From IMG/VR virus record IMGVR_UViG_3300035118_000190, positions 1 to 39,268 of that record: DNA of 39,268 nt; one strand, 5' to 3'. Source of the stretch: a virus. Every line of letters starts with the position of its first letter. The first letter of the stretch is position 1. Shown piece after piece: positions 8,485-24,650 of this stretch. Below the pieces are notes generated by a model that made no database searches, was not told where the DNA came from, and was given only the letters and a program-made list of their open reading frames with translations. The translations under genes and the position numbers were made by a program.

Positions 8485-8643
8485 ATGAGAATGGAATTTT
8501 CACCCTGGTATTACTGGCTGTGGCGCAGCATTGCCGTTTTTTTCAAGCGCCTGAAACGCAAGTCGCCCTCAACCACGATCATCGAAACAATCGGCTATTT
8601 CGGCGTAATCGCCGTCATCTTCACTATTGCGAGCGTGTTTTGA
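8485..8643 (+). CDS. Small membrane protein, 52 aa
   Basis: Starts MRMEFSPWYYWLWRSIAVFF and has an aromatic, basic N-terminal region and a C-terminal transmembrane helix (IGYFGVIAVIFTIASVF). Starts at 8485 or 8491; a longer frame from 8449 is less likely because that stretch looks like a duplicated fragment. The overlapping frame 8418-8651 has unnatural composition. Function unknown. Confidence 0.45.
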   Translation: MRMEFSPWYYWLWRSIAVFFKRLKRKSPSTTIIETIGYFGVIAVIFTIASVF

Positions 8644-8644
8644 A

Positions 8645-9442
8645 ATGCTGACGGCTGAGCAACAGAGACTTCGCGATGGCAAGCTGACCGCGTCGCGCGT
8701 CGCGTGCCTGATGACCGGCGACGCCGAGAAGATCATGGACCTGTTCCGTGAGATGACAGGCGATCCGACCTATCAGCCCGAAGACCTTTCGGGCGTGTGG
8801 CCGGTGCGGCTGGGCGAAGCGACCGAGGCGCTCAATCTCGAATGGTACGGACGCAAGACCGGCCACCCCGTCACCCGCATGGGCGAGGTTGTCGTTGCTC
8901 GCGAAGCCCCTTGGGCGGCCGCGACTTTAGACGGTTTCGACCCCGTCATGTCGGCCGTCATCGAATGCAAGACAGTCGGCGGGTTCGAGGCGCGCGAGCG
9001 CATCGTCGAGCGCTACCAGCCGCAATGTCACTGGGCGATGATCTGCACCGGCACGCGCAAGACGTTCCTCTCAATCATCGAGGCCGGCCGCGAGCCGGTG
9101 ATCGAAGAGATCACCTTCGACGGCACCTATGCCCTCGAGCTGTGGCGCCGCGCCGAGATGTTCATGAAATGTGTTTGGGATCTCATTCCACCTGCGGTGT
9201 TCGATGCGGTTGCCGCGCCGGTTCCGCCCGAGCGCTGGCGCACGGTGTCGATGGAGGGCAACAACGCTTGGGCTGAGAACGCCTCGCTCTGGATTGAGCA
9301 CCGCTCCGCCTCGAAGAAATTCGATGGCGCCTCGAAAGAGCTGCGCGCGATGGTCGAGGCCGATGTCGGCAAGGCGACCGGCCACGGCGTTTTGGTGAAG
9401 CGCGATCGTGCCGGGCGGTTGTCAATCAGTGCGGAGAGATAG
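8645..9442 (+). CDS. YqaJ/lambda-exonuclease-like recombinase nuclease, 265 aa
   Basis: A 5'-3' double-strand DNA exonuclease of the PD-(D/E)XK fold that makes single-strand tails for the annealing protein encoded next. Visible motifs: LTASRVACLMTG near the N-terminus, GEATEALNLEWY (acidic residue of the site), ATLDGFDP then VIECKT (the D...ExK core, about residues 98-117), and YQPQCHWAMICTG. Start at MLTAEQQ (ATG 8645) lies just after the previous stop. The nuclease-RecT pair is a standard phage recombination module. Confidence 0.85.
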   Translation: MLTAEQQRLRDGKLTASRVACLMTGDAEKIMDLFREMTGDPTYQPEDLSGVWPVRLGEATEALNLEWYGRKTGHPVTRMGEVVVAREAPWAAATLDGFDPVMSAVIECKTVGGFEARERIVERYQPQCHWAMICTGTRKTFLSIIEAGREPVIEEITFDGTYALELWRRAEMFMKCVWDLIPPAVFDAVAAPVPPERWRTVSMEGNNAWAENASLWIEHRSASKKFDGASKELRAMVEADVGKATGHGVLVKRDRAGRLSISAER

Positions 9443-9443
9443 G

Positions 9444-10319
9444 ATGTCCAAGGAAATTGCGCTCTTCACCGTGAGCGACATTCGCGCCATGGGCGAAGCC
9501 ATCGCGCGGTCTGGTTTATTCGGCATGAAGACGCCCGAGCAGGCGATTGCGCTTTGCCTCGTCGCGCAGGCCGAGGGCCGCCATCCCGCTTTGGCAGCGA
9601 GAGATTACGATGTCATAAACGGCCGCCCGGCGAAGAAGGCCGAGGCGATGCTGCGCGACTTCATCGAGGCGGGCGGCAAGGTCGAATGGCACGAGTTGAG
9701 CGACACCAATGCCGACGCGACCTTCTCGCATTCCAGCGGCGGCACGGTGCGAATCACCTGGGATCTGGACCGCGCGAAGATGGCCGGGCTGACGGGCAAG
9801 GACATGTACAAGAAGTACCCGCGGCAGATGCTGCGCTCGCGCGTCGTGTCGGAAGGCGTGCGCACGGTTTGCCCGGCCGCAACCTCGGGCATGTATGTGC
9901 CGGAAGAGGTCGCGGCTTTCGAGCCGCGGCAAGCCACTGACGTTACGCCTGCGCGGACCCCGGCGCCGATCGCCGCGGCAATGCCTGCGCCGCCTCCGGC
10001 CGAGCCGCCGCACGATCCGGCGACGGGCGAAGTGGCGCCGCATCAGATCCCGGTACCGACCGTCGGCGACCGCACCGACTACATCGCCTTTGGCCGCAGC
10101 TTCATCGCCGCCGTGAAATCCGCGCGCGACATGAGCGAGCTGAAGGCGTGGCAGGCCGAGAACAAGGAGGCGCTCGACGAGTGTAAGAAGGCCGCAGTCA
10201 AGGCGTTTAAGAGCATCAGCGGGGCTATCGCGATGATGGAGGACAAGCTGTTGCCGGCGCCGGACGCGGCGGAGTTGGCCGAAGAAAGCGACCTGCCGAA
10301 TATTCTGATCGCCGGCTGA
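9444..10319 (+). CDS. recT: RecT-family single-strand annealing protein, 291 aa
   Basis: Pattern of RecT: MKTPEQAIALCLVAQAEGRH, AKKAEAMLRDFIEAGG, MYKKYPRQMLRSRVVSEGVR and CPAATSGMYVPEE. It anneals the single strands made by the upstream exonuclease. A Pro-rich linker (about 175-215) leads to a helical tail. ATG at 9444 with GGAG upstream. No separate SSB gene is seen nearby. Confidence 0.9.
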   Translation: MSKEIALFTVSDIRAMGEAIARSGLFGMKTPEQAIALCLVAQAEGRHPALAARDYDVINGRPAKKAEAMLRDFIEAGGKVEWHELSDTNADATFSHSSGGTVRITWDLDRAKMAGLTGKDMYKKYPRQMLRSRVVSEGVRTVCPAATSGMYVPEEVAAFEPRQATDVTPARTPAPIAAAMPAPPPAEPPHDPATGEVAPHQIPVPTVGDRTDYIAFGRSFIAAVKSARDMSELKAWQAENKEALDECKKAAVKAFKSISGAIAMMEDKLLPAPDAAELAEESDLPNILIAG

Positions 10320-14949: not shown

Positions 14950-15159
14950 ATGCCGAACCAAAAGCCGCGTAGCGCCAAAGCCAAGAAAGCGGCCATGCAG
15001 CGCGTGATGGGCGAATTCAAGACCGGCGAGCTGCGCAGCGGCTCGAAGACGGGGCCGCGGGTGAAGAAGCCGAAGCAAGCGATTGCGATCGGGCTGAGCG
15101 AGAGCGGCCAGGCGCGCAAGCCGGGCGCGAAGAAGCGGCTGTCGAACGTCAGCTTCTAA
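14950..15159 (+). CDS. DUF6496-like small basic protein, 69 aa
   Basis: The pattern AAMQRVMGEFKTGELRSGS, then KPKQAIAIGLSESG, matches DUF6496, a short Lys/Arg-rich family found in bacteria and phages with unknown role, probably nucleic-acid binding. It is encoded against the late operon, and its stop codon overlaps the stop of the convergent 144-aa gene. GAGGAG lies eight bases before the ATG. Confidence 0.75.
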   Translation: MPNQKPRSAKAKKAAMQRVMGEFKTGELRSGSKTGPRVKKPKQAIAIGLSESGQARKPGAKKRLSNVSF

Positions 15160-15590
15160 TCCGCCGTCTCGGCCTCGACCTCTTCCCGCTCGGCTTCCGC
15201 CTCGATCAGTGGCAGCGGCTTGATCTCTGTGTGTGTCAGCTTGTCCAGATAGTCGCGCTGATTGCGGGTCAGCATGCGCTCGCTCTCGTCGTGCTTCTTC
15301 AGCTTCATCAAGATCTCACCCAGCACCTCGCGGTTCTGCGATTGGATGCCGAGCGATTTCAGGGCGACATAGCCGTTGATGATGGTGGCGCTCGCGGCGC
15401 GCTGGATCGTCAGCGATCTTACCCACTGGCGATGATCGCGCGGCACCCTGGTCTTGATGATCTCGAAGAGCCGGATCGACGCCGTCGGCACCAGGACTTG
15501 CTCGAAATAGCCGAGCGGGTCGGTTCGCGGGTCGATGGACCGGCGGCGGGGGGCCTTCTGGGGAGGTGGGGCGACCTTTTTGCGCGGCAT
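15156..15590 (-). CDS. Last late-operon protein, unknown function, 144 aa
   Basis: The ATG at 15590 overlaps the stop of the ATP-grasp gene by one base (TAATG). Basic N-terminus (MPRKKVAPPPQKAPRRRS), then a helical domain (PLGYFEQVLVPTASIRLFEI; VLGEILMKLKKHDESERML) and an acidic tail. No family recognised. Confidence 0.6.
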   Translation of the reverse strand: MPRKKVAPPPQKAPRRRSIDPRTDPLGYFEQVLVPTASIRLFEIIKTRVPRDHRQWVRSLTIQRAASATIINGYVALKSLGIQSQNREVLGEILMKLKKHDESERMLTRNQRDYLDKLTHTEIKPLPLIEAEAEREEVEAETAD

Positions 15591-16909
15591 TAGTACTCCA
15601 TTCGGTCTGCAAAGCCGAGCGACTGCACCTTCGGGATCTCGTCGCGCAGGCGCCGGCCGATGTCGATGCGCCAACCGGGGCTGTTCGGGATCTTGATCCG
15701 ATTTAGCGCGCGATAAGCAACCTCCCGGGCCTGCCGCACCGTATCGCCTGTGCCCGTTACCGTCAGCACGTAATCGCCCGCGGTGACGAGACAGGGCGCC
15801 GTCACCACCTCGCCGGCAATATCCTGCGGCGCTTCTCCGACCATCATCTCCAGCGGCGAGACCTTCTCCAGGACCCCCGGGGTGAGGCCGTAGACCGGCA
15901 CGCCGATCACCTCTTTGCCGGTCTGATGCGAGAAGGGGAAGTCGCCAATGGAAACCACGACGCCAACCGCCACCTTGTCGAAGATCAGATGCGGCATGTC
16001 TTGGCCGGTCGCGAGCGCGTGCAGCCATTCGGCATCGTCGCCCTCGTGCAAAGAGCGCTGAATGTTGAGGGTGGGATAGCCGAAGCGCATCGTGAACTCG
16101 AGCGGCCACGGTGTGCCCGCTTCGTCGATGATGCAATTGACATCGACATAGCCGACATAGCCGGTGGCGGCGAGCGCGTCGGCCATTGGCTCCAGCACCA
16201 TCTTTGCCAGCTTGGAGCGCTTCACGTAGCGCATCACGGTGCCCTGCTCGCCGGTGGCGACGCCGAGATCGCCGGCGAGCATCTTCTTGAACTCCCAATT
16301 CTCCAGCCGACCCTCGTTGAAGCCGCCCGGCCCGAACCAGCCGCCGACGGCCATCTCGCAGCCGTCCACCTTCTCCTGCAGGATGAACGAGCCCTTGTGG
16401 CGCTTCGCCTTTTTCCAGCGCTCGAGCATGTAGACGAGATCTGCGGGCGACTTGGCGACATAAGAGAGCGACTTGTCGGGCTCGTCGCCGCACGGCTTGG
16501 AAACGAAGGCGCGGCCCTCCTTTTTCACATAGGCGATGGCGTCATCGTAGTTGGTGAACTCGCGATAGCTCGGCACAGCGATGCCGTGCTTCTCGAAGAT
16601 CGATTGCCCGAGGGTACGGTCGAGCTCCCAGGCGGCGGCGTCCTGGGTCGCGCCGACGATGACCGCTTGCGGATAAGAGCGGCGGAAATTATCGAGCTCG
16701 CGAACGTAGATGGTGTTGCTGGTCAAGACGATGAGATCGGCCCAGCGCAGCCACGGCTTGAAATCGGGGATGCGCTCGACCATGCCTTTGCCGACGAGGG
16801 CCTTGCGATCGGTGTGGCGCACGTACCAGCGGACATCGTGCCCCGCCTTCTGCATGCGCCAGACGAAATCGACCTCGGGCCGGTCGTCGTCGATGACGAG
16901 CAGTTTCAT
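15590..16909 (-). CDS. PurD-like ATP-grasp ligase, 439 aa
   Basis: Four parts of the PurD (phosphoribosylamine-glycine ligase) layout are visible. The Rossmann-like start is MKLLVIDDD. The ATP-grasp lysine is in AFVSKP (about 138), with ILQEKVDGCEM (about 176-186). The Mg/ATP signature PLEFTMRFGYPTLNI (about 269-283) follows, and the C-terminus is YVLTVTGTGDTVRQAREVAY with WRIDIGRR. In true PurD the signature is E-x-N-x-R-F-G-D-P; here Asn is Thr and Asp is Tyr, so the substrate is probably not the purine intermediate. No other purine gene is present. It follows the largest ejection protein by an ATGA overlap, so it is made late. More likely an amino-acid or peptide ligase that modifies a small molecule, protein or nucleic acid. 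Confidence 0.75.
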   Translation of the reverse strand: MKLLVIDDDRPEVDFVWRMQKAGHDVRWYVRHTDRKALVGKGMVERIPDFKPWLRWADLIVLTSNTIYVRELDNFRRSYPQAVIVGATQDAAAWELDRTLGQSIFEKHGIAVPSYREFTNYDDAIAYVKKEGRAFVSKPCGDEPDKSLSYVAKSPADLVYMLERWKKAKRHKGSFILQEKVDGCEMAVGGWFGPGGFNEGRLENWEFKKMLAGDLGVATGEQGTVMRYVKRSKLAKMVLEPMADALAATGYVGYVDVNCIIDEAGTPWPLEFTMRFGYPTLNIQRSLHEGDDAEWLHALATGQDMPHLIFDKVAVGVVVSIGDFPFSHQTGKEVIGVPVYGLTPGVLEKVSPLEMMVGEAPQDIAGEVVTAPCLVTAGDYVLTVTGTGDTVRQAREVAYRALNRIKIPNSPGWRIDIGRRLRDEIPKVQSLGFADRMEY

Positions 16910-19881
16910 TGTGCCGACCTCTGCAGCTCGAGGCGGCCGGCGCGGCGCGCTGCGTCCTGTGCGTCCTTGGCTTTGAAATGCTCCTTCGCCGCGGCTTGCT
17001 GCTCGGTCGGGCTGCTCACGCCGATCTGCTGCAGCAGGAACTGGCTCGGTGTGGTGGTGCCTCCGATGATGCGCTGCGCCTGGCCGATCGGCTGCAGCTT
17101 GGAGCCAACCCAGGCGAGGAGATCGCGGATGAACTGGCCCGGGTGCCCGTCGGTGAGGTTCTCGGGATAGGCGATCGGCAGGCCACTCCAGGAATATTTT
17201 CCGCGAATGAGTTCGATCGGCGCCTCGATCGTTCCAATCGAAAACACTGACTGCGCGCCTTGCGCCGGCCCCTTCTCGCCAGTCGCCACGTCTATTGCCG
17301 CTTGCGGAACCGACATCGCGCCCGGACGCGAGACCTTGGCATTGGGATTGCTGGTGATCGCCTGCCACGCCTTGTCGAGCATGGGGTAGTAGACCGTGAG
17401 CAGCACGCCCAGCATCGCCAGCTTGTCGAGCGTCTCGGCGCGCTGCTTCAGCGGCACGTCCCGCGCCACGAGATCGCGCGCCATCGTCATGTAGGAGGCG
17501 AGGCGGTTGTACTGATAGCGCCCGAACATCGTCGCCAGCGGATGTGTCAAGATCTCGCTGAGCATGCGCTGGCCGAGCACCTGGCCAGGGACGCGGTAGT
17601 TCGGCATGTGCGCTTCGGTCTCGCGGATTGCCTTCTCAAGCGACATGCCCTTACCTTCGAGCTCCTTGATGCGCGCCACCGAGAGCGCGTCGCCGAAGCT
17701 CCACAGCGCCGTGTTCGAGACCGAATAGAGGCTACGGATGAGCTCGACGGGGTTGGCCTTGCCCGCGAGGGTGGCGATGTGCTTCCAGGCGCCGGGATTT
17801 GCCGCGACATCCTCGCCCAGCTTGGAGATGAGCGTGTTGTGCACGTCGCGGGTGATGTTGCGGGCATAAGGCAGGCTCGCGCCGGAGCGCAAGATGCGCA
17901 TGTAGTCGGCATCCTGGGTCGCGACCGAGCGCGCCGCGTTGAGCAGGCTCTTGAAGGTCGAGGGGATGCTGGTCGCGGTGCCGACCAGCCCCTTCTCGAC
18001 GAAATAGTGGTTGGCGACGTTCCGCATATGCGGGATCGGATTCCAGAAGATGCTGCCCTTGATGAAGCTGCCCGCCTTGTCGAGCGCGCTCTCCAGCCCT
18101 TCGATCTCGCGCTGGCGGCCGAGCGCGTCGTCGAGCGCGTCGGCAAGCGGCGCTTCCATGTAGTACTGCCGGAACTGCGGCATCTTCGGGATGCGCCACT
18201 CCCGGCCATTGGTGACGGGCGCGGAGGCATGATCGCTTACCTTGACCGCGACCTTCTCCCAATCGGGCGACGCCTTCATGTCCTCAATGAACTGCGCGTT
18301 GCGCACGGCGCTGCGCAGCTTGGCAACATTGTCGAGCCGGTTGGCGAGGACGTTCTTCTGATAGCGGGTCTGGGCGACCGCCTCGATCTCCTTGGTGGTG
18401 GCGGGCTCGAGCTTCCAGGTCTCGCCGCCGACGCGCACCTTCGAGCCGGCCTCGATCTTCTGTCCTTTGCCGAAGGTGCCGACCTCGCGCGGCTCGGTGG
18501 TGCCATCGAAGCCGAGCACGGTGCCGTCGGTGCCGACATGAACGACGGTGCGCTCGCCGGTCGAGGGGTTGACCGCGTTCCAGAAGCGCCGCGACTTCTG
18601 CGCATCGACGGTCTTGCGCATGGAGCGCCCGGCGGCGCCGCCGAACTTGGCCTCGACGCCCTGCTTCCACTGGTCGAGCACTTCGCCGAAGCTACGGGTG
18701 CGGCCGGCAACATAGCGCGGGGTGTAGCCCTCGCTGTCGGGCTGCGCGGTGAGGTGCTCGCGCTCCTCGACCGGGTAGCCGAAGGTTTCGAGCTTGCTGG
18801 CGAGATTGTCGGCCTCGGCCTTCAGCGGCGCGACGTGCTTGTCGTAAAGATCGCGCTCCTCGGGCGTGAGCGTCACGCCCTTGGGGTCTTCCTCGAAGTG
18901 GTAGAGCTTCTCCCAGGTATCAGACGCCACCCCCTCGGGGACTTCCTTCAGCGCCTTCAGCGTGTCGATCCGGTCGGCAACCTTGTTGCCCTCGAGCTGG
19001 AAGAGCTGATCCTCGAAGCTGCGCGGCTTGGTCAGCACCGGCGGGTGTGCGAGTGCGCCCTCGCTCGGCATGGCGGACGCGGCGGCCGGCGGCGCGGCGG
19101 GCGCAGGCCCAGGTGGGGGACTTGCCGGTGCCGCTGGCGGGACTTCAGGAGGAGCCGCGGCCGGCGGCGCTGGCCCCGTGGCAGCAGCTTCGCCCTCCGG
19201 CGCCGGCGCCGCTACGGCGGTGGGTTTCGGCGCTTCGGTGACAGGCTTCGGCGCCTCGGCGGCGCGTGCCGCAGCAGCAGCCTCCGCCCCGGTGCGCGCA
19301 GCGCCCAGCCCGCCCTTGGGGCCAAGCGCCATCGTGGCCTGGCCGATGGCCTTCTCGCCTTCCGCGGCCGGGATCTGGAAACCCTTGGGCAGCAGGCCCG
19401 TGCCCTTCTCGACGGCCTGGCCGAATGGCTTGGCGACCAGCGCGGTGAAGAGGCCCGAGAGTGGCGAGGTGACGAGGTTGAAGGCATCGACCGCGCTCTT
19501 GCCGGTGGACATCAGCCGGTCGAAATGCGCCTTCTGCTCGTCCCAAAAGTTCTCGGGCGGCGCCTTCGACGGATCGGGCAGGCTGTTGAGGAAATCGGTC
19601 TTCAGTTGCTCCCAGGAGCCTTTGACGGCGCTGCCAACTTCGCCCGCGACATACGAGGCCGCGCGGCCGGGGAGCGTCGTCGGGCTGGGCGCGTCATCCA
19701 CGGGCGTGCCCGCAAACACCATCTTGGGTCCGCCGGCATCATTGGCGGGCGCGGTATCGTTCGCTGGCGCAGCAGGGGCTGCGGGGGAGACGGGGGTACC
19801 CTTGAAAACCATGCGCGGCGGCGGCGCTGCCGCTGGAGACGGCGGCGCGTTATCGACGGGCGTTCCGGCGAATACGGGCAT
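16906..19881 (-). CDS. Large internal virion/DNA-ejection-like protein, 991 aa
   Basis: The longest gene. The N-terminus carries three copies of a VFxGTPVx motif (residues 3-9, 25-31, 55-61) separated by Pro/Ala stretches. Residues about 205-275 form a Pro/Ala linker. The centre and C-terminus are long helices with amphipathic and hydrophobic segments (LDKLAMLGVLLTVYYPML) and end in an Ala/Gln/Lys helix. Size, place after the tail and lysis genes, and composition fit an internal core protein ejected with DNA, as in T7 or P22. No lytic-transglycosylase motif was seen. Assignment by context. Confidence 0.55.
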   Translation of the reverse strand: MPVFAGTPVDNAPPSPAAAPPPRMVFKGTPVSPAAPAAPANDTAPANDAGGPKMVFAGTPVDDAPSPTTLPGRAASYVAGEVGSAVKGSWEQLKTDFLNSLPDPSKAPPENFWDEQKAHFDRLMSTGKSAVDAFNLVTSPLSGLFTALVAKPFGQAVEKGTGLLPKGFQIPAAEGEKAIGQATMALGPKGGLGAARTGAEAAAAARAAEAPKPVTEAPKPTAVAAPAPEGEAAATGPAPPAAAPPEVPPAAPASPPPGPAPAAPPAAASAMPSEGALAHPPVLTKPRSFEDQLFQLEGNKVADRIDTLKALKEVPEGVASDTWEKLYHFEEDPKGVTLTPEERDLYDKHVAPLKAEADNLASKLETFGYPVEEREHLTAQPDSEGYTPRYVAGRTRSFGEVLDQWKQGVEAKFGGAAGRSMRKTVDAQKSRRFWNAVNPSTGERTVVHVGTDGTVLGFDGTTEPREVGTFGKGQKIEAGSKVRVGGETWKLEPATTKEIEAVAQTRYQKNVLANRLDNVAKLRSAVRNAQFIEDMKASPDWEKVAVKVSDHASAPVTNGREWRIPKMPQFRQYYMEAPLADALDDALGRQREIEGLESALDKAGSFIKGSIFWNPIPHMRNVANHYFVEKGLVGTATSIPSTFKSLLNAARSVATQDADYMRILRSGASLPYARNITRDVHNTLISKLGEDVAANPGAWKHIATLAGKANPVELIRSLYSVSNTALWSFGDALSVARIKELEGKGMSLEKAIRETEAHMPNYRVPGQVLGQRMLSEILTHPLATMFGRYQYNRLASYMTMARDLVARDVPLKQRAETLDKLAMLGVLLTVYYPMLDKAWQAITSNPNAKVSRPGAMSVPQAAIDVATGEKGPAQGAQSVFSIGTIEAPIELIRGKYSWSGLPIAYPENLTDGHPGQFIRDLLAWVGSKLQPIGQAQRIIGGTTTPSQFLLQQIGVSSPTEQQAAAKEHFKAKDAQDAARRAGRLELQRSAQ

Positions 19882-19882
19882 G

Positions 19883-21325
19883 TCACGGTTTCTTCTTCAC
19901 GCCTTCGTCATCCTGGAAATACGCGCCCGAGGGGAGAGCATCGTAATCGGCCTGGCTCGTCGGCTTGGCGGGATTATCTTTGGTGCCGGCCGCGTCACCT
20001 TCGAGCGCGTTCTTGGAATCATTCCAAGCCCGCAGCTTGGGGTTGCCCTTGCGCGCGTCGATCATGTCCTTCGCGGCGGCGTCGCGCTGGCGCACCAGGT
20101 CATCGTACTTCTTGCGCGCTTCGGTGCCGACCGCGGGCGGATAACCCATGTTCTTTTGCCGGATGTCGGTGAGCTGGTCGTTGAGGGCCGAGCGCTTGGC
20201 GGCTGCTAGTTCATGAGCGGCCTGGGAGCCCGCGCCGGCTGCTGCGGCCACTCGATCCTGGTGTGAAAGATCCTGCCCGCGCTGCTGCGTCTCGAGGCGG
20301 AGCTTGGCAACGCGCTCCTGCATCTCGGTTCGCTCGGCGGCTTGGGACAGCCCCTTCTCCTTAATCTCGACTTGCTGGTCCTGATACCATTTCGTCTGCT
20401 CGAGCTTGCCTTGGGCAAGCGCCTGCTTGGCGGCCTCGCGATCTGCGTTCGACTTCGCCGCCGCGCCAAGATCGGCGGTCTTATCGCCGGTCGGGGCTAT
20501 CCCAGCCTTCACCAGTAGCTGATCGAGCTTCGATTGCAGATCCGCCGTCTTGCGGTCGTTCAATCCTTGCTGCCCCAATTGCGCGATCTGCATGCGGATG
20601 TCGAGCGCATCGCGCTGCGCCGCGATGCGGTCGGCGCCCTGCGCGATCCGCTGATCCGCTTCTCGGATGCGCTCCTCGAGCGTCTGGGCCTGCATCTGGT
20701 TCTTGAAGTCCTGCATCTCCTGCCGGTACTGCAACTGCGCCATCGGCCCGAACGTGTTGATCGTGTTCGTGACCGCGCGGAAGAGCGTGTCGGGGCGGAT
20801 GTTCGGGTTCGCCTTCTTGATGCGCGCGGCGATCGCATAGGGGTCGAGCGGGTTGCTGCCCGCGGAGCGCGGCTGTGGTTGTGGCTGCGGCTGAGCCTGC
20901 GGTTGCGGCGGACCAACTCCCGGTGGCGCCATCGGGGGACGGCCGCCGGGCGGAACACCGCCGGGCGGCAGCATGCCAGGAGGCGCCCCGCCCGCCCCTG
21001 GTGGACCAGGAGGACCGCCAGGAGGTCTCATCATTGCGGGAGGAGGCGAACCGGGACCGCCGACTGTGGGCGGAACGCCACCGCCGGCCATCGGACCCGC
21101 GCCCATGCTGGGCGGCGCCGGGGGCGGCTGGTACTGGCTGGTATCGTCGATCAGCCCCAAGCCCGCAGCGACGTTCGCCTGATCCTCTTGCTGCTGCTGC
21201 TGGAGCAACTGCTGCGCGCGCGCGGTCTGGACGCGCTGCTCTGCGATCCGCGCCTGCTGCTCCTCGGCCTTCATGTAGCCGGGAGCGATGGCCGATAAAA
21301 AGGACGCGTTGAACCCTGCCACCAC
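19883..21325 (-). CDS. Internal virion protein candidate with Pro-rich and coiled-coil regions, 480 aa
   Basis: GTG start. A helical N-terminus (about 1-50, Gln-rich) is followed by a Pro/Gly-rich stretch (about 65-155), then continuous coiled coil (about 190-430). The C-terminus (SQADYDALPSGAYFQDDEG) is a short motif often ending phage virion proteins. Likely part of the ejection apparatus. The Pro-rich stretch has no assigned function. Confidence 0.5.
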   Translation of the reverse strand: MVAGFNASFLSAIAPGYMKAEEQQARIAEQRVQTARAQQLLQQQQQEDQANVAAGLGLIDDTSQYQPPPAPPSMGAGPMAGGGVPPTVGGPGSPPPAMMRPPGGPPGPPGAGGAPPGMLPPGGVPPGGRPPMAPPGVGPPQPQAQPQPQPQPRSAGSNPLDPYAIAARIKKANPNIRPDTLFRAVTNTINTFGPMAQLQYRQEMQDFKNQMQAQTLEERIREADQRIAQGADRIAAQRDALDIRMQIAQLGQQGLNDRKTADLQSKLDQLLVKAGIAPTGDKTADLGAAAKSNADREAAKQALAQGKLEQTKWYQDQQVEIKEKGLSQAAERTEMQERVAKLRLETQQRGQDLSHQDRVAAAAGAGSQAAHELAAAKRSALNDQLTDIRQKNMGYPPAVGTEARKKYDDLVRQRDAAAKDMIDARKGNPKLRAWNDSKNALEGDAAGTKDNPAKPTSQADYDALPSGAYFQDDEGVKKKP

Positions 21326-21333
21326 TCACCCCC

Positions 21334-22566
21334 TCAGTATGGCGTCGCGACTTGGCCCGGCTGGTTTACCGTGGATGGGTCGTAGTACAGATTCGGATTG
21401 GAATAGGTCTGGTAGTTCGCGCTGCCCGGCGCGTAGGTCGAAGGCGATCCCGATCCGCCAAAGAGACCGCTGAGAGCGCTTTGAACGCCGGAGGTATTAA
21501 GGGTGTTGCCGAATTGCTGAATGCCAGCCCCCATATTCGAGCCGAGCGTCTGCTGCTGGTTGAACAGTTGCTGATTCGCATTTTGATTGGCTTGCACGGC
21601 ATTGAGCGCCCCTGTCGATGCATTCTGCCCATATTGCAGATAGGGCATAAGCGCCGCCATGGTCTGCGCATCCATCCCGTAAGAGCCTTGCAGGAGCTGA
21701 TTATAGTTGCCGATCTGAGTGCCCAAATTCGTCTGCTGCCCGAGGGCGGTCTGATAGGGCAGCCCCGACATGGTTCCGATCTGTCCTGCCGCGCCGGTGT
21801 TGAGGTCGTAAGCGGCTGACACACCCTTGCCCGCCGCATTGACGATGTTGCCGTAGCCCGCTTCTGCGTTGCCGTAGCCTTGCAGCGCTTGCTGATATGC
21901 CTGCGACGCCTGTTGCTGGCGCGCAAGCTGGGCATTCTGCCAGTCGATGTTGAAGTTGGAGAGGCCCTGGCCTTGCACGCCCGCGCCGTAAGGGGTGCCG
22001 CTCAAGCCCTGCATGGCGTTGACCGCCGCGAGCTGGTCGCTCACCTGCTGCTGCGTGCGATTGTACAGCGCGTTTTGTGGGTCGAATCCGGTTTGCGCAA
22101 CCTGCCCCGCAAGGTTCATGCCTTGTCCGGCATACCCCATCCCCTGCGCAGCGTACGGCACCGCGCCCATCCCGAGGCCGTACATCATGTTCGCGCCGCC
22201 TTGGGCCTGCGGCAGGGTTTGCGCGGCGGTCATGTCGTATGCCTGTTGCGCGCCCTGCGTCGCAAGCCCCGCGCCCGGCGTGTTCCCTACTCCCGACAAA
22301 TATTGATTGAGATAGGGCGGCAGCGTGGCTTGCTGTTGAATGCCGCCTGCCCCGTACGTGTTGACGATGTTATTATAAAGTTGATCCATATAGGGCTGGC
22401 CCATCGGCTGGTAGGGCGTTTGCGCAGTCGGGATACCGCCGCCGCTATATCCGCCGCCGCTATATCCGCCGCCGCCGCTGCCGCCCATTGAGCCAGCTAG
22501 CGTGCTTCCCAGCGAAGCCGCCGATGCTGCCAGACCGACGCCCGCACCTACCGCTGCAACTCCCAT
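21334..22566 (-). CDS. Gly/Gln/Ala-rich virion protein, probable ejection protein, 410 aa
   Basis: Starts with a small hydrophobic Gly/Ala segment (AAVGAGVGLAASAASLGSTL) and a GGGYSGGG repeat, then Gln/Asn/Ala/Tyr-rich sequence throughout. Such composition is typical of small P22-like ejection (transfer) proteins. AAGGAAG precedes the ATG. First of three consecutive ejection-type genes. Confidence 0.5.
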   Translation of the reverse strand: MGVAAVGAGVGLAASAASLGSTLAGSMGGSGGGGYSGGGYSGGGIPTAQTPYQPMGQPYMDQLYNNIVNTYGAGGIQQQATLPPYLNQYLSGVGNTPGAGLATQGAQQAYDMTAAQTLPQAQGGANMMYGLGMGAVPYAAQGMGYAGQGMNLAGQVAQTGFDPQNALYNRTQQQVSDQLAAVNAMQGLSGTPYGAGVQGQGLSNFNIDWQNAQLARQQQASQAYQQALQGYGNAEAGYGNIVNAAGKGVSAAYDLNTGAAGQIGTMSGLPYQTALGQQTNLGTQIGNYNQLLQGSYGMDAQTMAALMPYLQYGQNASTGALNAVQANQNANQQLFNQQQTLGSNMGAGIQQFGNTLNTSGVQSALSGLFGGSGSPSTYAPGSANYQTYSNPNLYYDPSTVNQPGQVATPY

Positions 22567-22582
22567 CGGACCACTTCCTTAA

Positions 22583-23641
22583 TCAAGCGCCAAGTTCCAG
22601 GCGATAGAGACTGCCGAATTCTTCCGCGCCAAGCCGGCGATAGAGAGCACCCATCCTTGGACCGTCGCCACGCACACCCGCATAAAAAAGAGCCGCTCGA
22701 GCGCCGCGCGCCTTCAAGGCCGCGAGAGAAGCGCGCTGCAATTTGACGCCGATCCCGGGCATATCCTTGGACACGTAAAAAGTATTGTGCAGGCCGGTGA
22801 ACTCGCCGCGCACCTCGAGCGACGGGTTTAACACCGCCATCAGATAGCCGAACATCCGGCCGTTGGCGCGGGCGGTCGTGATCTGCATGTATCCCGTGTC
22901 GTACATCATTTTCATAAGCGGAAGATCTTTGTTCTTCCAGTTGTCGGGCGCCTCGCCGACCTCGACCAGATGCTCTGCAAACAGCCTCTGGCCGTCGCGC
23001 ACCCAAGCGCCGAAGGTCTCCTGCTGAAAGGTCACCCCGTCGGACGACTGCGGCGGGCGAACCGCAATCTGCGCCCGGCAATGCGCCGCCGCGATCTTCG
23101 CGATCTTGTCCATCGGCTCGCGATAGGAGAGCACGTAGCGGGCAAGCGCGCGCATGTTGCACTGCATGTTTGTTGACCGGCACTGCTCCCACCAGGCCGC
23201 ATCGAACTTGTACGGCAGGCAGTGTTCCCATACCGCCTTGACCACCTCTTCCCTATCCAGATCCGCGTAATCGACGGAGAGGACGTTCGGCAAGCGCTTG
23301 GCGATCTGTTGCAGCTTGGCATCGAGGCGCTCCATGCGAGCGCGCAAGACGGTCTCGGAAAATACGAGAACGCCGCTGAGGTCGAGCGCCATGAGGCTCT
23401 TCACGACATCGGCGACGGGGCGGCGCACGACGACAATGTTTATCGCTGGATCAATGAGCCGCCAGAAGGGTGCAATCGCCGTTTCCGCCGAGCCGTGGAA
23501 GTCTTGCTCGAGCCACGTCTTGGCGTCCTCGAGCGAGCGCAGATAGCGCGCCTCTTCATGCCCGCAGGAATAATCGCCATACGAAAGAAACTTCGACAGC
23601 CAGTAAGTCCGCGACCGGGGAAGAGCGAGCACGAGAAACAT
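22583..23641 (-). CDS. Sulfotransferase-like domain fused to GNAT acetyltransferase-like domain, 352 aa
   Basis: The N-terminus LALPRSRTYWLSKFLS matches the 5'-phosphosulfate-binding loop of PAPS sulfotransferases, and NIVVVRRPVADVVKSLMAL (about 68-86) matches the 3'-phosphate-binding helix. From about 205 a GNAT fold follows (YMQITTARANGRMFGYLMAV; FYVSKDMPGIGVKLQRASLA; RMGALYRRLGAEEFG), with the acetyl-CoA loop near PGIGVK. Start ATG 23641 overlaps the stop of the dioxygenase gene (TAATG). The two genes are therefore translationally linked. Targets unknown; candidates are capsid or tail proteins, cell-surface glycans or a small metabolite. Confidence 0.65.
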   Translation of the reverse strand: MFLVLALPRSRTYWLSKFLSYGDYSCGHEEARYLRSLEDAKTWLEQDFHGSAETAIAPFWRLIDPAINIVVVRRPVADVVKSLMALDLSGVLVFSETVLRARMERLDAKLQQIAKRLPNVLSVDYADLDREEVVKAVWEHCLPYKFDAAWWEQCRSTNMQCNMRALARYVLSYREPMDKIAKIAAAHCRAQIAVRPPQSSDGVTFQQETFGAWVRDGQRLFAEHLVEVGEAPDNWKNKDLPLMKMMYDTGYMQITTARANGRMFGYLMAVLNPSLEVRGEFTGLHNTFYVSKDMPGIGVKLQRASLAALKARGARAALFYAGVRGDGPRMGALYRRLGAEEFGSLYRLELGA

Positions 23642-24219
23642 TATGCGAGGCCGGGATTGTCGGAGCGCTCGTCTTGCTCCCGGCGATACATCTCGAAGAC
23701 CAGATGCAGGGACCGATGCGGCCCCCAATTGGCGGCGCAGTGCCGGACTTGGTGGTCGAAGAACCACAGCGACCCGACCGTCATGTGTTGCATCTGCGGC
23801 CCGGCATACATGAGACAGCCGGGATTGGTGACGAGCGGCAGATGAAACCGGATCGTGCGCTCGCAATAAGGCCCGTCATCGACGCGCCACAAGGGAGTCG
23901 AGCCGGGGTCGAAGCGCGAGATCATCGCCCGCGCCATCTCGCCGCTGAGATACTGGCGCGCGACCGGCTCGGCCATGATTGCGCTCTTGGCTGCGTGCAG
24001 CAGCCGCTGCATGCTGCGCCATGGATGCAGATCGGCGGCGTCGTGCACCGGGAGATCCTCGAGCCAGTTCTCCGGCGTGATGTCGTCGTGGGCGCGCAGG
24101 AGCAGCGACACATCCTCGCCGCGCGCCTCGACCGGCAACCATTTGTCCGGCATCAGCTTCACGAGGATCGGCATCACCGCCATCGTGTCGAAGTGGCCGA
24201 TGAACCGGAACCCGCTCAC
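23641..24219 (-). CDS. Aspartyl/asparaginyl beta-hydroxylase-like 2OG-Fe(II) oxygenase, 192 aa
   Basis: The C-terminal half follows the Asp/Asn hydroxylase pattern: RTIRFHLPLVTNPGC (iron His at 126), then a glycine and FFDHQVRHCAANWG (iron His at 160), then HRSLHLVFEMY (Arg for 2-oxoglutarate). This family uses two His ligands, and both are present. GTG start at 24219 overlaps the endolysin stop (GTGA). It lies between lysis and sulfotransferase-GNAT genes, so it is expressed late. It probably hydroxylates a protein or amino-acid side chain. Confidence 0.7.
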   Translation of the reverse strand: MSGFRFIGHFDTMAVMPILVKLMPDKWLPVEARGEDVSLLLRAHDDITPENWLEDLPVHDAADLHPWRSMQRLLHAAKSAIMAEPVARQYLSGEMARAMISRFDPGSTPLWRVDDGPYCERTIRFHLPLVTNPGCLMYAGPQMQHMTVGSLWFFDHQVRHCAANWGPHRSLHLVFEMYRREQDERSDNPGLA

Positions 24220-24650
24220 GGCCCGAGCACATAGAAGGCGTGGCAGCCGATCACCTTGGCGATCGGCTTAGCCTTCGCCCAGGCAGAGCCGGCGCCGATG
24301 CGCTCGAAATGGGTGGGGTGCCGTCCCTTCGCATCGCAGGCGGGGTCCGGGACATCGCCCTCGAACACGGCGCGCACGATATCGCGAAGCTCGGGCAGAT
24401 CGGGTGCATCGTCGCGGAGAGCGAGTAATGCGGCGCGCTCCGGGTCATTCCGTAACCAGCACGGGAAATGATCGTGTCGCATGCAGACCTCTTTGACCGA
24501 CCGGCCAAAGAGGCCACCCGAGAAAGACCGGGTGCGGATGACCCAGGCGATCGCTTGCTGACCCTCGAGCGGCTCGCCGCGGCAGAGGCCGTAAAGCGTG
24601 CGGGCGGCGATGTCGATGTCAGCGTCGTTGCAGACGCAGACCTCGACCAT
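24216..24650 (-). CDS. SleB-like cell wall hydrolase (endolysin), 144 aa
   Basis: Residues about 14-60 (ARTLYGLCRGEPLEGQQAIA) and 72-88 (VKEVCMRHDHFPCW) match the Hydrolase_2/SleB family of peptidoglycan hydrolases, with the probable catalytic acid position in the RGEP segment. No signal peptide, so a holin is needed. Follows the holin-like genes and the 51-aa gene in one cassette. Confidence 0.8.
   Translation of the reverse strand: MVEVCVCNDADIDIAARTLYGLCRGEPLEGQQAIAWVIRTRSFSGGLFGRSVKEVCMRHDHFPCWLRNDPERAALLALRDDAPDLPELRDIVRAVFEGDVPDPACDAKGRHPTHFERIGAGSAWAKAKPIAKVIGCHAFYVLGP

Follow-up and report, generated by a model that had tools for sequence, protein, structure and literature searches.

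Why should a virus surround its ejection-type genes with an oxygenase, a sulfotransferase–GNAT fusion and an ATP-grasp ligase? Ejection proteins must remain packed inside the phage head until they pass through the envelope and form a transient channel. The first-pass annotation had placed these three enzymes around three such genes in one operon, and all were indeed found, on the minus strand and tightly spaced, in the window (the whole virus record that was analysed, 39,268 bases), whose late genes lie on that strand. AspH (the oxygenase), the sulfotransferase–GNAT, the three ejection-type genes and the ATP-grasp gene form a single tight minus-strand operon, listed here in the order of transcription:

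24216–24650, minus strand: cell-wall hydrolase (SleB-like endolysin; PF07486, 7.5e-9), directly upstream of AspH and given for context only
23641–24219, minus strand: AspH-type Fe(II)/2-oxoglutarate oxygenase, 192 aa, GTG start (PF05118, 6.1e-10, and alignment)
22583–23641, minus strand: predicted sulfotransferase (about residues 1–190) fused to a putative GNAT (about 200–352) (phrog_10855, phrog_1249, P-loop, Foldseek)
21334–22566, minus strand: gp14-position ejection-type protein P0005, 410 aa (synteny; 293 viral relatives, best 80 read)
19883–21325, minus strand: gp15-position ejection-type protein P0004, 480 aa (synteny)
16906–19881, minus strand: gp16-position ejection-type protein P0003, 991 aa (synteny; SLT domains in the L217 and PfAn1 counterparts)
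15590–16909, minus strand: PurD-like ATP-grasp ligase, 439 aa (PF01071, PF02843; PurD structures over the full length; 46 invariant columns)

A small gene ending at 15156 follows the ligase. Adjoining cassette genes overlap by 1–4 bases or are separated by 1–16 bases, and the G+C content per codon position of the cassette genes (≈ 0.65/0.42/0.76–0.85) is as in real genes. On the opposite (plus) strand, the window carries a YqaJ-type recombinase at 8627–9442 (5.6e-12) and, after it, a weak RecT-like gene at 9408–10319 (0.009).

The three proteins between the enzymes carry the label “ejection-type” by synteny, that is, by their order and size, and the assignment is to be read as putative. Pfam and PHROG profile searches of the three found no family match, and in the gp16-position protein Pfam found no wall-degrading domain. 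The relatives supply annotated counterparts: the cultured Pseudomonas phage PfAn1 has, in this order and without an ATP-grasp gene, AspH, an acetyltransferase, two genes annotated as internal virion proteins and one annotated as a peptidoglycan transglycosylase, and the third gene of the set contains an SLT domain in L217 (2.4e-13) and a glucosaminidase domain in L248 (5.2e-18). A direct profile link of the window's gp14- and gp16-position proteins to recognised ejection proteins was dropped, the profile comparisons with PfAn1 and its relatives having given no support for a connection.

How firmly the enzymes belong to this place was read from three baits. The ATP-grasp bait found 105 or more relatives in viral contigs; where the sequence was long enough (about 45 loci), the order is slot, gp14-like, gp15-like, gp16-like and ATP-grasp, the slot being the place directly upstream of the gp14-like gene. 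The gp14-like bait found 293 viral relatives, the best 80 of which were read and, clustered at 80% identity with flanks required, gave 48 clusters, the window's near-identical contig counting as one. Just upstream of the gp14-like gene these clusters have AspH (28/48), GNAT (25/48), cupin (16/48), sulfotransferase (4/48) or, in one case, none of them, and 42 of the 48 have ATP-grasp behind the gp16-like gene. ATP-grasp is present in all 28 AspH clusters versus 14 of the 20 lacking AspH (Fisher p = 0.003, uncorrected for descent). The third bait, the closer AspH subfamily (283 relatives in viral contigs, best 80 read), has GNAT directly downstream in 69/69 viral loci with room (29/29 clusters), and the gp14-like gene follows where the sequence allows; in one group this gene is too diverged for the model, the order is the same and an SLT domain is present in the third gene.

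In many phages, and in Paraburkholderia prophages too, AspH, GNAT and ATP-grasp jointly flank the ejection genes. Independent occurrence of the three genes in relatives, which the first-pass annotation had named as the observation that would speak against a common system, is not what AspH and GNAT display, adjoining as they do in every one of the 69 loci; joint occurrence of all three enzymes is seen in many phages, but the sulfotransferase is present in only 4 of the 48 clusters, and ATP-grasp is missing from six. Single-protein searches with the window AspH and sulfotransferase–GNAT returned only the near-identical contig L003, a limit of search sensitivity, and the independence that such matches might suggest was rejected as an effect of it.

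The content of the slot varies: GNAT, AspH–GNAT, AspH–cupin and, in the window, AspH–sulfotransferase–GNAT. The sulfotransferase itself appears in several combinations, as a sulfotransferase–GNAT without AspH in L033 (45% identical), as AspH–sulfotransferase–AspH in L013 and L115, and alone, without AspH, in L037 and L090. Some AspH–cupin slots are in records that carry isolate-style IMG identifiers (L114, L121 and L123, for example) and are probably prophages. Cupin–SET methyltransferase fusions occupy the slot in L067, L068, L077, L078 and L080 (SET 3.4e-9 in L077); for four of them the coordinates, directly upstream of the gp14-like gene, are:

L067, 4931–5716: cupin–SET fusion
L068, 4165–5301: cupin–SET fusion
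L077, 4762–5622: cupin–SET fusion
L080, 3823–4683: cupin–SET fusion

Unrelated protein-modifying folds, SET among them, are swapped within one slot. On the basis of the bait counts, the cupin–SET relatives and the PfAn1 gene order, an exchangeable slot for protein-modifying enzymes adjoins the gp14-like gene, and a separable ligase accompanies it.

In Limnohabitans phage DC33 (L083, PQ492659.1), an AspH–GNAT pair is flanked by terminase-like and portal-like genes; this record is classified under Inoviridae, a misfit for a terminase-bearing genome.

Do the slot proteins look like working enzymes? The window AspH matches PF05118 at 6.1e-10 (39.6 bits versus a curated cutoff of 22.6), and its family profile matches structures of L-proline cis-4-hydroxylase and AspH. 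By alignment, both iron-binding histidines are there (H126 and H160), and the column usually holding the 2-oxoglutarate arginine is Ser170, with Arg169 one residue before it. The phage proteins share with the PF05118 enzymes (AspH and L-proline cis-4-hydroxylase) the fold profile and the two-histidine iron site, and differ from them in being phage-encoded, ≈ 190 aa long and fixed beside ejection genes, with the usual arginine displaced in the window copy.

The iron site is not universal in the family. Of the 80 domains in the AspH-bait set (the best 80 of 283), 79 keep both histidines; the first histidine is a tyrosine in 30/30 domains of the AspH–cupin loci, and both ligands are gone from the AspH of L024, L029 and L035; R124 and N164 stay in the lineages whose iron ligands are gone. 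In the AspH–cupin loci (L114, L121, L123, L150 and others) a single-domain cupin follows the tyrosine-bearing AspH, and from their sequences the pair is possibly a pseudo-enzyme with a new metal protein.

Because several AspH lineages, the window copy not among them, have lost their iron ligands, a real rival is that the slot proteins help the gp14-like protein to assemble, as chaperones derived from reused enzyme folds, with catalysis optional or lost. The retention of R124 and N164 in these lineages would fit such a role, as would the precedent of T7, where gene 13 immediately precedes genes 14-15-16, its product is labelled by Pfam a probable scaffold, and one record has gp13 needed for gp6.7 incorporation. 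In position the slot genes do correspond to T7 gene 13, coming immediately before the gp14-like gene. We nevertheless consider this scaffolding role unlikely, since iron ligands are present in nearly all domains of the AspH-bait set, the ATP-grasp and SET motifs look intact, and the folds that replace one another are differing enzyme folds. Nor is homology of gp13 with these GNATs detectable by profile comparison (hhalign probabilities of 3.6% and 0.8%), and gp13 was rejected as their sequence homologue.

In the fusion, the N-domain matches phrog_10855 (5.3e-8), with a weak Pfam sulfotransferase hit below the cutoff (0.038), and contains a PAPS-type P-loop, LPRSRTxW, kept in six relatives. A first full-length AlphaFold model of the sulfotransferase–GNAT was poor (pLDDT 52); the sulfotransferase domain alone gave a model with a pLDDT of 84.7, whose best Foldseek match is heparan-sulfate N-deacetylase/N-sulfotransferase (1.7e-4) and whose second is human tyrosylprotein sulfotransferase-2 (4.7e-4). 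The P-loop and the modelled fold together identify the N-part as a predicted sulfotransferase. The C-domain alone matches phrog_1249 (6.6e-5; below the cutoff in Pfam), a GNAT family matched by 36/38 relatives, and the CoA motif of the window GNAT is two residues short.

The ligase has PF01071 (2.7e-9) and PF02843 (1.7e-8), both above cutoff, and matches the PurD structure 5vev at 2.8e-35 over positions 1–418 of 438, C domain included. Across 42 relatives 46 columns are invariant and the core is kept, and the PurD substrate-side motifs are altered family-wide (DHKR to EFKK, GPNTGGMGA to GVATGEQGT, EFNxRFGDPE to EFTMRxGWP). Because these motifs are changed in the whole phage family, we call the protein PurD-like rather than PurD, and regard it, on its sequence, as a PurD-derived ligase. 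Its likeness to PurD (GAR synthetase) is thus a full-length profile match, C domain included; it differs in the replaced substrate-side motifs and in a mostly virion-assembly context. That it is simply a purD-type purine gene, the other enzymes being unrelated cargo, would agree with the full-length resemblance and is highly improbable in view of the family-wide motif changes, the 42 of 48 clusters that hold it behind the gp16-like gene, and the lack of any purine gene among the window genes scanned.

The ligase is separable from the slot enzymes. Besides the six clusters mentioned, PfAn1, DC33 and MW202665 do without it, as do the long records L128 (46 kb) and L144 (45 kb); of 22 long records with AspH, 13 lack it. 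The same family also occurs in large-phage-like contigs (L052–L056, L058 and L060), among small genes, where one conserved protein family always follows it and no recognisable ejection genes are near. In relatives lacking ATP-grasp, an uncharacterised protein of ≈ 130–150 aa (no Pfam match for that of L106) holds its place behind the gp16-like gene:

L106, 14091–14519: ≈ 130–150 aa protein
L128, 9851–10252: ≈ 130–150 aa protein
L138, 12783–13223: ≈ 130–150 aa protein
L175, 8948–9373: ≈ 130–150 aa protein

What, then, do the enzymes act on? It had been proposed that hydroxylation could create the site for sulfation or acetylation and that the ligase could add an amino acid. We do not favour a single chain of this kind, because the sulfotransferase is rare (4/48) and often without AspH (L033, L037, L090), and the ligase is separable and sometimes absent. 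The host envelope, offered earlier as an alternative target, fares no better: nothing points there, and AspH and the SET methyltransferase in the slot point to protein targets. Both the envelope and the true-PurD readings are ranked low. More broadly, the enzymes might act on host proteins or envelope, in takeover or superinfection exclusion, or be carried into the next host along with the ejection proteins. For GNATs and ATP-grasp enzymes of other phages, modification of host proteins is predicted or known (PMC7824862, PMC4431377), and the ATP-grasp family is found also away from ejection genes; against this, the enzymes sit inside a late structural operon and, in diverse phages, hold the same position next to the gp14-like gene, and we regard a host target as quite unlikely.

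The most economical way to read exchangeable protein-modifying folds fixed beside the gp14-like gene is that the ejection proteins are modified late: a virion-maturation cassette whose enzymes would act on the ejection proteins of the phage itself before these are packaged, to which, the target included, we assign a probability of roughly 0.52. The slot before the gp14-like gene would supply at least one small protein-modifying enzyme and the place after the gp16-like gene a PurD-derived ATP-grasp, all presumably produced late, together with the ejection proteins, as the operon implies. The ejection proteins would most likely be modified in the cell, prior to packaging, with catalysis, substrate and purpose all predicted. 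AspH would hydroxylate a side chain of an ejection protein, the GNAT and the sulfotransferase would transfer acyl and sulfo groups to ejection proteins, and the ATP-grasp would use ATP to couple an amine to a small carboxylate, which may be an amino acid. Such modifications would tune the solubility of the ejected proteins, the assembly of the core or the passage through the membrane.

This late-modification reading is backed by the tight reciprocal linkage and by the conservation of predicted catalytic residues in the AspH–GNAT lineage and the ATP-grasp family. Against it count the iron ligands gone from several AspH lineages, the short CoA motif and shifted arginine in the window, the ATP-grasp genes away from ejection genes, and the window ejection-type proteins having no profile link. 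As candidate targets, gp14-like residues differing between AspH-bearing and AspH-lacking phages were set aside: the contrast tracks lineage and names no target.

The arrangement, which recurs with swappable enzymes in hundreds of related phages, suggests chemical finishing of injection proteins before packing. We tentatively extend this, at somewhat less than even odds, to many podophages and prophages, which may encode a dedicated, modular system of post-translational modification for ejection proteins, with hydroxylation, acetylation, sulfation, methylation and ATP-driven ligation interchanged at set positions, next to the gp14-like gene and after the gp16-like one; the ejected channel would then be a chemically finished structure. 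A conserved exchangeable enzyme set makes the working of ejection proteins and the role of T7 gp13 directly testable, and would give the phage hydroxylase, sulfotransferase, SET and ligase families defined candidate substrates.

We found no paper in the open-licence literature that links ejection genes with genes for AspH, a sulfotransferase, SET or a PurD-like ligase; the known systems each resemble the cassette in part. LUZ24-like phages have an early amidoligase cluster (PMC3890496), likewise in a podovirus and with an ATP-grasp enzyme among its ligase genes, but situated in the early region with an amidoligase and a glutamine amidotransferase and not among ejection genes. The R2K ligases, phage ATP-grasp enzymes with predicted protein-modifying roles, some beside GNATs in bacteria (PMC4431377), are comparable in predicted activity; they belong by description to another ATP-grasp clade, host proteins were proposed as their targets, and linkage to ejection genes is not reported there. 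One slot member, GNAT/gp13, is already known: the cobavirus paper equated a GNAT beside internal virion proteins with T7 gp13 (PMC6775973). T7 gene 13 and the GNATs of cobaviruses and Zobellviridae share with the window genes the place of a small gene directly upstream of a gp14-type gene in a late operon; here that place can also be filled by AspH, a sulfotransferase, a cupin or SET, and the set ends with an ATP-grasp ligase.
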